From Rhizobium rhizogenes (lineage in GTDB: Bacteria > Pseudomonadota > Alphaproteobacteria > Rhizobiales > Rhizobiaceae): a DNA stretch of 64,000 nt. Where the stretch lies: contig NZ_CP019701.2 of NCBI RefSeq assembly GCF_002005205.3, positions 310,001 to 374,000 of the forward strand, read 5' to 3'. Of the stretch, positions 47,073 to 59,160 are shown in pieces; position 1 is the first letter of the stretch, and every line of letters begins with the position of its first letter. Below the pieces are notes generated by a model that worked only from the letters and a program-made list of their open reading frames with translations, ran no database searches and was not told the origin of the DNA. The translations under genes and the position numbers were made by a program.

Positions 47073-47492
47073 TCAGGCGGCGAAGCGGATATCTTCAAAC
47101 CGCGGAAACAGGAACAGCCCGGAAATCCAGCCCTGCTGGCCGCCTTCGAAGCCGGAGGATTCGCCCATGCAGATGACCGGCTGCCGCATTGCCGGCAAGA
47201 TGGAGACGCCGGTTGAAAAACAGAAGCGCGAGGGGGCGGTGGAAGCCTGCTCGAAAAGTTCAAGCACGCGCGCGTGGTCGCCACGGTCATAGCAGCGGAC
47301 CAGGCTGAGCAGTCCGCATTCGCCCGGCGGCAGGCCGTGCATGAAAGACGCGTGTTCGCCAAGCCGGATGACGCCGCTCGCAAGATCGCTGCTCCATTCC
47401 TCCGAAATAAAGAAATGCGACAGGGTTTGCGGATCGGGCATGGTCGCCGCAGCTCCGGGCAGAGCATCGTTGCGTCTTGATATCTCGAACAA
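47073..47492 (-). CDS. small PAS-like protein
   Basis: The product is about 139 residues and resembles stand-alone PAS-domain proteins of Rhizobiales. A core of strands and helices runs through WSSDLASGVIRLGEHASFMHG, GLLSLVRCYDRGDHARVLELF, SRFCFSTGVSI and RQPVICMGES to a terminal FLFPRFEDIRF. No output domain is attached, so it may act by partner binding. The start is uncertain: TTG at 47492 has GGGGGCG upstream, while the ATG at 47441 would give a shorter form of about 122 residues. It stands alone next to the gene-poor region before the repeat array. Confidence 0.7.
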   Translation of the reverse strand: MFEISRRNDALPGAAATMPDPQTLSHFFISEEWSSDLASGVIRLGEHASFMHGLPPGECGLLSLVRCYDRGDHARVLELFEQASTAPSRFCFSTGVSILPAMRQPVICMGESSGFEGGQQGWISGLFLFPRFEDIRFAA

Positions 47493-47970
47493 ATCGCGCC
47501 CCCGCTGAACATCGTGCCAGCGCCGCTATTTCCAAGCGTCGCCGTCAGATTGTACTTTCACCGCCATCCGCAGTTGGACGTATTTGCAAGCATCGAAACC
47601 CCTTCAATGCTTGCGTCCTGTCGCGGCACCCTTATGGGCGCTGACTTATAGTTTATTTTCCTCTACCGACAACAACCGATCAGTGAGAAAATCAAAAATA
47701 TTATGTATTCCTTCATCGCAATCGCGAAATATATGAAAAAAGACAACTAAATGTCGAACTTATAGGCCCGGAAATGCGGAATTCCGAGCCGCCGGCGATG
47801 GTGATTCGCCCATCTGGATGTCCCATTATTGCATGGGTCGCTGAAAACAAGCCGGCTAAAGTTACGGATGTCTCAAAAAGAGACAATATTTTGAAGCGAC
47901 GCCCGCCATTGCAGTTTGCAGGCTCCTGTATAGCCTGAATGCAAGTTGCTCCGTGGAATTTTTCAAAAGA
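47493..47970. other. gene-poor intergenic region
   Basis: About 478 bases with no supported gene. 47640-47760 is AT-rich and may hold the promoter of the PAS-like gene, which reads leftward. A dyad TGTCTC-AAAAA-GAGACA lies at 47869-47885, followed by ATATTTT. The only longer open frame here, on the minus strand, runs into the repeat array and has no family-like features. Confidence 0.5.
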
Positions 47971-48000
47971 AAAAGGGCGATCCGGAGACCGCCCTTTCTT
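47971..48000 (-). terminator. terminator copy 4 (farthest from groEL)
   Basis: AAAAGGGCGATCCGGAGACC then GCCCTTTCTT; on the minus strand AAAGGGCGGTC...GATCGCCCTTTT forms a stem with a T tail. The loop differs by one base from the other copies. Confidence 0.85.
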
Positions 48001-48090
48001 AATTCCGGTGACAGGACTGATTGGAAGTCCATGCCGCCTGTTTGGCGCGCTTGCGACGCCGGAGCGCTCGACGGGCATGGGCGGCAAACG

Positions 48091-48121
48091 AAAAAGGGCG
48101 ATCCGAAGACCGCCCTTTCTT
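48091..48121 (-). terminator. terminator copy 3
   Basis: Same hairpin as the one nearest groEL (stem AAAGGGCG / CGCCCTTT with GTCTTCGGAT loop region, T tail on the minus strand), 121 bp away from the next copy. Confidence 0.88.
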
Positions 48122-48211
48122 AATTCCGGTGACAGGACTGATTGGAAGTCCATGCCGCCCGTCCGGCGCGCTTGCGACGCCGGAGCGCTCGACGGGCATG
48201 GGCGGCAAACG

Positions 48212-48242
48212 AAAAAGGGCGATCCGAAGACCGCCCTTTCTT
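48212..48242 (-). terminator. terminator copy 2
   Basis: Identical hairpin to copy 3, one 121-bp period closer to groEL. Confidence 0.88.
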
Positions 48243-48332
48243 AATTCCGGTGACAGGACTGCTTGGAAGTCCATGCCGCCTGTCTGGCGCGCTTGCGACG
48301 CCGGACCGCTCGAAGGGCATGGGCGGCAAACG

Positions 48333-48363
48333 AAAAAGGGCGATCCGAAGACCGCCCTTTCTT
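48333..48363 (-). terminator. terminator of groEL (copy 1)
   Basis: The first hairpin after the groEL stop codon, 20 bp downstream of it. Stem AAAGGGCG / CGCCCTTT and TTTTT tail on the minus strand: a standard intrinsic terminator. Confidence 0.92.
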
Positions 48364-48383
48364 AATTCCGGTGACAGGACTGA

Positions 48384-50066
<1,683 letters not shown>

Positions 50067-57252: not shown

Positions 57253-59160
57253 ATGACTTTTAAAGACAAGCCGAAGCGTGACGGTGGCAAGACATTTAGC
57301 CGCGACAGGAAGCCGAAAGGCCCCGGCAAGCCCGCCGCAGAGCGTGAAAAGAAACCGGCCGAGGCAAAGGCTGCCCCGGCGCCCGAAACCGTTGGCGGTG
57401 GCAAGCCGGAGCGCATTTCCAAGATCATGGCGCGCGCCGGTGTCGCCTCGCGCCGCGATGTCGAGCGCATGATCATGGAAGGCCGCGTGTCGCTGAACGG
57501 CGTCAAGCTGGATACGCCGGTGGTCAACGCCACGCTGTCCGACAAGATCGAAGTGGACGGCATGCCGATTCGCGGTGCCGAGCGCACGCGACTGTGGCTC
57601 TACCACAAGCCCGCCGGTCTGGTGACGACCAATTCCGACCCGGAAGGCCGTCCGACCGTTTTCGACAATCTGCCGGGCGAGCTGCCCCGTGTGCTCTCCA
57701 TCGGCCGCCTCGATATCAATACCGAAGGCCTGCTGCTGCTCACAAACGATGGCGGTCTTTCCCGCGTGCTGGAACTGCCGACCACCGGCTGGCTGCGCCG
57801 CTACCGCGTGCGCGCCCATGGCGAGGTCGATCAGGCCGCGCTCGACAAGCTGAAGGAAGGTATCGCCGTCGACGGCGTGCTTTATGGCGCGATCGACGCG
57901 ACGCTCGACCGCACCCAGGGCCATAATGTCTGGATCAGCATGGGTCTGCGCGAAGGCAAGAACCGCGAGATCAAGAACGTGCTCGGCGCGCTGGGTCTCG
58001 AGGTCAACCGCCTGATCCGCGTTTCCTACGGCCCGTTCCAGCTTGGCGATCTGGCTGAGGGCAAGGTGCTGGAAGTGCGTGGCCGCATGCTGCGCGACCA
58101 GCTTGGCCCGCGCCTGATCGAAGAGGCGGGCGCCAATTTCGATGCACCGATCTATAATGCGCCCGTTGAGGATGAGGAAGACAACGCGCCGAAGCGGCCC
58201 GTGAAATCCGAATGGGCAAAGAGCGATGCGCCGGAAGGCAAGCCGCGCTTCGAAAAGGGCGGCAAGCCCGAGGATCGTCGCGAAAAGGCGCTCGGCCGTC
58301 TCGATACCAAGCGTGGCGACAAGCCAGCCGGCAAGTTTGGCTCCAAGCCCGCCGGGAAATTTGGTGCCAAGGGCCGCAGCGAGGATGATGGCGACGACCG
58401 CCGCCCACGCCAGCCGGCCGGCACCAGCCGCACGGCCAATGTCTGGATGGCGCCCGGTGCAAGGCCGACCCGTGACGGCAAGGAACACAAGTCTTCCGCC
58501 CGTGCGGAAGCCGAAAACCTCTTCAAGAAGCCTTCCGCCCAGGACGAAGCGCGCCGCAACGTCGTGCGGCATGCGGATGCCGAGGGCGAGTGGATCCGTT
58601 CGGATTCCCCCCGCGAAGAAGAAGGCGGTCGCGGACGCGGCGACCGTCCGCGCGGCGAAAAGAGCTTTGGTGATCGTGGTGGACGCGGCGCAAAGCCGTT
58701 CGGCGACCGGCCATTCCGCGACAGGCCGCGTGAAGAAGGGGATCGCCCGCGCGGTGAAAAGAGCTTCGGCGACCGCCCGGCGCGCGGCGGCAAAGCTTTT
58801 GGCGACCGGCCATTTCGTGACAGGCCGCGCGAAGAGGGTGACCGCCCGCGCAGCGACCGTCCACGTGGCGAAAAACCTTTCGGTGACCGTCCGTTCCGCG
58901 ACAGGCCCCGTGAAGACGGTGACCGCCCACGCGGTGAGCGCCCTGCGGGAGACAAGCCCCGTGGCGGCAAGCCGGCCGGTAAACCCGGCTTCGGCAAGCC
59001 ATCTTTCGGAAAATCGGGCGAGCGTGGCGAACGTTCGGGTTTCTCAGGCAAGAGCAAAGGCCCCGGTGGTCCCGGCGGCGGCAAGCCGGGCGGCAAAGGC
59101 CCGGGTGGCAAACCTTCTGGAGGCAGGGGAATGACACGTAATGCGGATCGTAGGCGGTGA
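57253..59160 (+). CDS. RluB/RsuA-type pseudouridine synthase with long charged tail
   Basis: This 635-residue protein isomerises uridine in rRNA, probably 23S (RluB-like). A basic N-terminal linker precedes an S4 RNA-binding domain (about 53-100; ERISKIMARAGVASRR). The synthase domain (about 110-290) carries the catalytic Asp154 in GRLDINTEGLLLL. The remaining 340 residues are a low-complexity, Arg/Gly/Asp/Lys/Pro-rich tail with three near-identical copies of FGDRPFRDRPRE(E/D)GDRPR, like RGG-type RNA-binding tails. E. coli RluB has only a short tail. The ATG at 57253 starts a family-like N-terminus. rsmD overlaps its end by 20 bp. Confidence 0.92.
   Translation: MTFKDKPKRDGGKTFSRDRKPKGPGKPAAEREKKPAEAKAAPAPETVGGGKPERISKIMARAGVASRRDVERMIMEGRVSLNGVKLDTPVVNATLSDKIEVDGMPIRGAERTRLWLYHKPAGLVTTNSDPEGRPTVFDNLPGELPRVLSIGRLDINTEGLLLLTNDGGLSRVLELPTTGWLRRYRVRAHGEVDQAALDKLKEGIAVDGVLYGAIDATLDRTQGHNVWISMGLREGKNREIKNVLGALGLEVNRLIRVSYGPFQLGDLAEGKVLEVRGRMLRDQLGPRLIEEAGANFDAPIYNAPVEDEEDNAPKRPVKSEWAKSDAPEGKPRFEKGGKPEDRREKALGRLDTKRGDKPAGKFGSKPAGKFGAKGRSEDDGDDRRPRQPAGTSRTANVWMAPGARPTRDGKEHKSSARAEAENLFKKPSAQDEARRNVVRHADAEGEWIRSDSPREEEGGRGRGDRPRGEKSFGDRGGRGAKPFGDRPFRDRPREEGDRPRGEKSFGDRPARGGKAFGDRPFRDRPREEGDRPRSDRPRGEKPFGDRPFRDRPREDGDRPRGERPAGDKPRGGKPAGKPGFGKPSFGKSGERGERSGFSGKSKGPGGPGGGKPGGKGPGGKPSGGRGMTRNADRRR

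Follow-up and report, generated by a model that had tools for sequence, protein, structure and literature searches.

A tandem array behind groEL in Rhizobium rhizogenes is an expanded case of a widespread groEL 3'-end module

Behind groEL in Rhizobium rhizogenes the end of the gene recurs several times, and the question is what these extra copies are, how they arose and whether they are kept for a purpose. groEL is among the most studied of bacterial genes. The locus lies in a stretch of 64,000 nucleotides, here called the window, that is part of a 3.0-Mb contig in a 3-contig assembly. A first-pass annotation of the window had described the groEL tail, 3' UTR and terminator as recurring three times at 121-bp spacing, and both Tandem Repeats Finder and our alignment of the units bear this out: the array at 47964-48402 has a period of 121, 3.6 copies, 95% matches, no indels and a score of 808. 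Such a score at an exact period is not chance, and an assembly artefact is very unlikely, as 14 other congeneric genomes have one or two extra copies of the 121-bp unit and the assembly is in three contigs. The copies in those genomes also have species-specific differences, and we give chance and artefact together a negligible probability.

groEL is on the minus strand, so the extra copies are at lower coordinates than the gene (Table 1), and the array extends into coding sequence, with 48387-48402 also inside the repeat. Each unit has the tail GGCGGCATGGACTTC, the stop position, about 20 nt, an 11-bp hairpin with T behind it and then a spacer of about 57 nt, which is missing from the last unit of the array. 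The three extra copies all read CAA at the stop position, where the gene copy has TAA; on this point also the alignment of the four units agrees with the first-pass annotation. The segment 47940-48400 folds far better than shuffled sequence (z -7.5, with 0 of 100 shuffles as good). Five consecutive T follow the hairpin and three of them pair with an A-tract, which is probably why the hairpins are absent from the output of a consensus terminator scan. A read-through protein is ruled out, since the unit period is not as a rule a multiple of three (counts of 36, 25 and 24 in the three classes modulo 3). We also rejected an Rfam family or known sRNA as the identity of the element, as none of the matches listed for 47600-48600 reached the gathering score (the best was MicX, 31.8 against 75) and ten related loci gave no Rfam match. 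A search for plasmid relatives found none.

Table 1. Features of the groEL locus and of the array behind it, in window coordinates
Feature	Position	Strand	Basis
groEL, host gene, 546 aa, C-terminus GGGMGGMDF	48384..50024	-	ORF; Pfam Cpn60_TCP1 E 3.7e-81
groEL stop codon	48384-48386	-	ORF list
Unit 0 (gene copy): coding tail GGCGGCATGGACTTC, TAA, 3' UTR, terminator hairpin, antitail, palindrome	48281..48401	-	
Unit 1 (first extra copy), CAA at stop position	48160..48280	-	unit alignment
Unit 2 (second extra copy), CAA at stop position	48039..48159	-	unit alignment
Unit 3 (third extra copy, partial): tail copy, CAA, terminator, no module behind	47964..48038	-	
Terminator hairpin of unit 0: 11-bp stem, UUCG loop, then TTC	48335..48360	-	fold, -16.6 kcal/mol
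Terminator hairpin of unit 1	48214..48239	-	fold
Terminator hairpin of unit 2	48093..48118	-	fold
Terminator hairpin of unit 3, loop UCCG	47972..47997	-	fold
Palindromic module 1: antitail GCCGCCCAT 48319-48327, strong hairpin ~48282-48306, tail copy 48266-48280	48266..48327	-	covariance model, E 8.2e-8
Palindromic module 2: antitail 48198-48206, hairpin ~48161-48185, tail copy 48145-48159	48145..48206	-	covariance model, E 3.3e-8
Palindromic module 3: antitail 48077-48085, hairpin ~48040-48064, tail copy 48024-48038	48024..48085	-	covariance model, E 7.7e-8

What the first-pass annotation overlooked is a palindromic module inside the unit, and the occurrence of this module in other genera. 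In the direction of groEL the order is an inverted copy of the tail (the antitail), a stretch with a mini-hairpin (judged by eye), a strong hairpin and a direct copy of the tail, so that the module sits between the real end of groEL and a second, non-coding copy of that end. The antitail GCCGCCCAT is the reverse complement of ATGGGCGGC from the groEL tail. We compared 85 distinct loci that have a tail copy downstream, a set that leaves aside four others in which the module is present (L192, L213, L218 and L208). The antitail matches exactly in 54 of them, at one mismatch in 12 and at two or three mismatches in 19; for the tail copy, the numbers of loci with zero, one and two mismatches are 62, 17 and 6. 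The distance from antitail to tail copy is 44-62 nt, and is 45-50 nt in 76 of the 85. The unit hairpins may be intrinsic (Rho-independent) terminators, as each unit of the own genus has a stable UUCG-looped hairpin and then T, whereas the strong hairpin of the window module runs into the tail copy with no T-run. In one genome (G233, locus L178) there is an extra palindrome in the loop between the groEL stop and the antitail, so hairpins can nest inside the module.

The strong hairpin is conserved in form while its sequence varies. Across 83 distinct modules, Watson-Crick pairs make up 853 of the 906 in the stem, the stem is 8-13 bp in 80 and the loop 2-5 nt in 67, and in 62 the hairpin is at or above the 99th percentile of shuffles. 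In an alignment of 36 modules, in which the rows from the own genus are out of register in the loop, 68 cells have changed on both sides of the stem with pairing preserved, against 21.0 in shuffles (0 of 500 as high), and the covariation score is 0.334 against 0.129, falling to 0.03-0.11 when the partner is slid by 1-3 columns. Two of the five measures of this test are not above shuffles: there are 6 pairs with a change on both sides against 5.3 (243 of 500 as high) and 14 further pair types against 14.3 (360 of 500 as high). The outer GCCGCC/GGCGGC stem is nearly invariant, and gives evidence neither for nor against pairing. Such conservation of structure with free sequence points to structure in either RNA or DNA. 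Nothing shows that it is RNA rather than DNA structure that is kept, G-U and A-C combinations in the stems being 20 and 13 (p=0.30).

In the own genome the covariance model finds the three copies at groEL and nothing else below E 0.4. We also searched 397 genomes of the order, which we take, from the named relatives, to be Hyphomicrobiales. There were matches at E<=0.01 in 73, and the places of all of them were inspected. The module is directly behind groEL in 64 genomes, from 18 of the 52 families sampled, and is thus not peculiar to this strain. The figure of 64 is a lower bound, as stricter filters were used in searches over 40 genomes. Of the remaining genomes with matches, eight have matches with no groEL nearby (G048, G050, G231, G266, G268, G304, G320 and G403) and one (G427) has groEL with no module. 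Every match at E<=2.2e-4 adjoins groEL except for L221, a contig-edge piece without groEL. Where weak matches, at E 3.6e-4 and above, lie away from groEL, as in L216, L217 and L222-L233, we regard them as chance. Those at groEL are true modules in L218 and L219, and in L220 a groEL end without module.

An exact pattern for the two conserved ends of the module is present in 35 of the 397 genomes, and its reversed control in none. Of 30 pattern-match loci fetched, 25 have groEL and five do not; the five (L118, L119, L121, L122 and L140) were rejected as having no hairpin by eye, and it follows that some of the 35 are chance matches. A search of 385 genomes across the class gave matches in six, the own genome and G570 (L148), the sole convincing further case, with the other four rejected as a groEL tail without module (L150, L151) or an unrelated gene (L149, L152). 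A repeat scan of groEL loci took in 400 nt downstream of the stop, except in L072 and L077, where the sequence did not reach that far. Among 80 named alphaproteobacterial groEL loci, six have a tail copy and the order of elements given above: those of Rhizobium leucaenae, a Rhizobiales isolate, Aureimonas, Stappia, an Alphaproteobacteria MAG and a Siculibacillus MAG. Six genomes have two groEL genes, each with its own version of the module (G079 with L181/L185, G115 with L213/L218, G119 with L194/L201, G175 with L175/L189, G203 with L161/L183 and G362 with L182/L190).

The array is one expanded case of a widespread groEL 3'-end module. In our preferred reading, to which we give a probability of about 0.6, it is a local expansion by recombination of a palindromic module tied to the groEL 3' end in this order, and the single module may be kept for a structured 3' end. 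The direct tail copies that flank the palindrome would allow unequal recombination or replication slippage to add or remove whole units. In the own genus the terminator lies between tail and antitail, and thus inside the unit, and it is for this reason that terminators are multiplied there, so that expansion would also stack them. With less confidence, we suggest that the hairpins give groEL mRNA a structured 3' end, for protection, definition of the 3' end or backup termination, and that this is why the module is kept. This putative function raises the question whether the chaperonin message has a 3'-end control of its own. The four-fold array itself is probably a near-neutral by-product. Counted against the preferred reading are the 333 of 397 genomes of the order with no verified module, the tail copy being found in six of the 80 named loci, and also the greater divergence of the extra units between species and the frequently broken distal terminators described below. 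The two covariation measures that stay at the level of shuffles, the G-U and A-C comparison and the codon comparison given below count against it as well.

The first-pass annotation had proposed that the unit be sought in related groEL loci and its copies counted. We inspected the groEL ends of 30 of the 39 genomes of the genus, the own genome included. Fifteen have no extra copy, nine have one, five have two, and three are found in the own genome. The 0-1-2-3 series inside this genus amounts to a natural experiment on terminators in tandem. A groEL tree was built for 29 of the genomes (L029 was left out as too short), and 12 of its 26 inner branches are weak. Copy number has changed at least 9 times on this tree, where the least possible is 3 and the shuffled mean 12.9, so that copy number is also clustered on the tree. 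Presence or absence of extra copies needs at least 5 changes. All carriers are inside one well-supported set of 21, and the nearest neighbour of the own genome, with groEL 99% identical and fork support of 85/86, has no extra copy. The changes on the tree and this neighbour support a recent expansion, which was one of the two explanations in the first-pass annotation. Apparent truncated remnants are present in L018, L019 and L021.

The head-to-tail arrangement at an exact period, with copy number differing between species, is that of a tandem duplication or VNTR. The array resembles a VNTR that turns over by unequal recombination in its exact period, labile copy number and partial last unit, but differs in that the seed of the repeat is a module of fixed anatomy, common to 18 families with different hairpin sequences. 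The extra units are closer to the gene copy of their own genome than to the gene copies of other species (p=0.0014), which indicates mild concerted evolution. Identity between species is 0.855 for extra units and 0.948 for gene copies.

The other explanation in the first-pass annotation was selection for several serial terminators behind a strongly transcribed heat-shock operon. The four window hairpins are intact, with a predicted stem energy of -16.6 kcal/mol in each; the sequence is identical in units 0-2 and the fourth unit has a single loop change (UCCG for UUCG). Within the genus the gene-copy terminators are intact in 15 of 15 arrays (14 by our intactness rule) and the inner extra terminators in 7 of 7 (6 by rule), the difference in each case being L003, in which the rule scored units 0 and 1 as broken while both are intact by eye. 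The intact window hairpins and inner extra terminators are in favour of serial termination, but the outermost terminator is broken in 7 of the 15 arrays (extra-copy terminators as a whole are intact in 14 of 22 by rule, and 15 after correction of L003), the extra units are the more divergent ones, and the nearest relative has no extra copy. Outside the genus there is no T-run between stop and module in 58 of 70 loci, and the repeated unit is thus without a terminator there; over all 85 loci, only 27 have a repeated unit that contains a T-run. Taken overall the data do not support selection for stacked termination, which we consider highly doubtful.

The selective loss of the stop that had been claimed for the extra copies is mostly true of the own genus, where the stop position in 22 extra copies is CAA in 15, CAG in 2 and TAA in 5. 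It is not true elsewhere, as outside the genus 77 of 85 extra copies (70 loci) keep the stop. For the genus we infer one old substitution that was copied along, which explains the change better than repeated selection.

We compared 378 ORF ends, groEL included, from mechanical ORFs of at least 120 aa in 464 kb (the window, and 20 stretches of 20 kb sampled from three genomes). Only at groEL are the last 15 coding bases copied at 0-1 mismatch within about 250 nt, and two other ends have a match at two mismatches. At 18 loci the gene tail differs from GGCGGCATGGACTTC. There the tail copy resembles the own tail more than the consensus in 15 and the consensus more in 2, with 1 tie, though the test leans to the own tail because a copy with at most three mismatches to it was a condition for choosing the loci. 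When the four GMDMM genes are left out, for which a consensus copy was not selectable, the count is 11 of 14, with some of the loci from close relatives. The antitail also follows the gene in L148 and L183 (GGCGAC with GTCGCC), L197 (GGCGGT with ACCGCC) and L206 (GGT with ACC), and does not follow it in L120, L168, L188 and L215. The module is a clean case for study of how non-coding copies of a gene end arise, spread and follow the gene. A groEL reading through the module, as suggested by protein searches for L192, L213 and L218, is an artefact of those searches, with ordinary stops preceding the module.

It could be that all of this is a neutral by-product of replication, in which a self-similar tail coding for GGM, together with its palindromes, provokes template switching and slippage, so that inverted and direct tail copies arise repeatedly in different lineages and the module has no function. 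The direct-inverted-direct arrangement of the tails is in accord with this, as are tail copies that follow the local gene, the labile copy number, the divergence of the extra units, the broken outermost terminators and the lack of a codon constraint specific to the module (see below). However the strong hairpin does not simply repeat the tail, it is near-perfect even between deeply diverged lineages and it is at a near-fixed distance in 18 families; nor is there a copy at 0-1 mismatch behind any of the 377 ORF ends other than groEL. We see functionless origin as possible though rather unlikely for the module.

A further possibility is a translation-responsive RNA switch on groEL of Hyphomicrobiales, in which the antitail pairs with either the coding tail or the downstream tail copy. 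In the untranslated state the stop codon would be in a hairpin loop, and in the translated state the antitail would be on the non-coding tail copy, so that arrival of the ribosome at the stop would be coupled to the fate of the 3' end of groEL mRNA. If true, the non-coding copy of the last codons would be a decoy partner that co-evolves with groEL. The predicted gain in energy over the 85 loci has a median of -17.5 kcal/mol for the upstream pairing, with the coding tail, and of -12.1 kcal/mol for the downstream one, and in several species, for example at L115 and L117, the upstream pairing is predicted as an interrupted hairpin of up to 18 pairs with the stop codon in its loop. The 54 exact antitails and the four loci in which antitail and gene have changed together also fit a switch. 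Against it, the pairings are unbalanced, with that to the coding tail predicted to be the stronger in 81 of 85 loci, 19 antitails have two or three mismatches, four do not follow the gene and the distribution is patchy. Consensus codons make up 63 of 72 in groEL tails with module (36.0 expected from own codon usage) and 28 of 39 in tails without (16.6 expected), and the equal excess indicates that pairing does not visibly constrain the gene. This and the comparison of G-U with A-C are two tests for an RNA role of the module, and neither gave support. We regard the switch as distinctly unlikely.

The nearest known kind of element is the REP/REPIN/BIME group, and the module might be a miniature mobile element of a REP/REPIN-like kind, inserted behind groEL, that carried the tail or duplicated it as a target site. 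According to PMC3116915 tandem clusters that include flanks are typical of REPINs, and according to PMC6006769 the tag of a REP is GTAG or GTGG 0-2 nt 5' of the hairpin. By comparison with REPINs and BIMEs with RAYT, the module is alike in short-spaced palindromes, tandem arrays with flanks and hairpin size, but is locked to one gene, is not dispersed in the own genome, has no Y1 transposase there, is mostly untagged and holds a copy of the coding tail of its host gene. With regard to a REPIN-type inverted pair of hairpins, the antitail/tail pairing gives an outer stem, and the partner hairpin differs in kind.

The tag GT[AG]G is at the foot of the hairpin in 25 of 83 distinct modules if overlap with the first stem base is allowed, and at the opposite foot in none, an asymmetry that favours a link to REP elements. 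However it is strictly outside the stem in 2 and missing in 58, and we rejected it as an explanation of the mini-hairpin because it is mostly absent. The Y1 transposase family PF01797 is present in 3 of 14 genomes searched, and the own genome is among the 11 that lack it; of the 14, all but G129 carry the module. PMC6006769 states that Y1 genes are few or lacking in Alphaproteobacteria such as Rhizobiales. As to dispersal, every verified full module adjoins groEL, and in the own genome the hairpin core is found at 5 other places, each with 2-3 mismatches, against 2 for the reversed control. The module has GCCGCC/GGCGGC inverted repeats as a MITE might, and its tail copy might be taken for a long duplicated target, but the full module is not dispersed in the own genome.

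Dispersed relatives of the core are found in other genomes. The AAGTCGG..CCGACTT hairpin core of family f34 has 27 matches in G253, 13 in G273 and 6 in G413 (reversed control 1, 1 and 0), with one match at groEL in each of G273 and G413; at L256 and L265-L267 the spacer resembles that of the module. We do not class the module as REP, since in the own genome it is neither dispersed nor accompanied by the Y1 transposase and since most modules lack the tag, and the mobile element is in our view an unlikely account of it. A link to REP elements may nevertheless exist, given the tag asymmetry and the dispersed f34 cores. The 20 places inspected, L254-L273 (15 of them from G273 and G413), are mainly from f34 genomes. 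The hairpins there are dispersed and REPIN-like, and at many of the places two lie side by side and are nested in other palindromes such as CCTCTCCC..GGGAGAGG or GATCCATC..GATGGATC. PF01797 was not found in G253 or G273, and has one match in G413.

The module seems undescribed so far, as we found no paper on a groEL-linked palindromic module in the literature searched, which has most subscription journals outside it. The Br-REP1 and Br-REP2 elements of Bradyrhizobium are, according to PMC5082802, palindromic, located in 3' UTRs and dispersed over intergenic regions. They share with the module the palindromic form and a place in alphaproteobacterial 3' UTRs, and differ in being dispersed; groEL is not mentioned in the main text of that paper. 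A term search of PMC3733652 gave neither groEL nor Agrobacterium.

There are other features near the array. A palindrome TGTCTC..GAGACA at 47869-47885, about 80 nt beyond the array, recurs downstream of groEL in many loci of the genus. Downstream of groEL and in the same direction there is an ORF of 139 aa (47073-47492, minus strand) with no Pfam match, and it is possible that this is a beneficiary of termination behind groEL. The window also has tandem repeats elsewhere, with a 99-bp unit in 2.2 copies at 58642-58856 and 24-bp units at 58314-58371 and 1918-1964.
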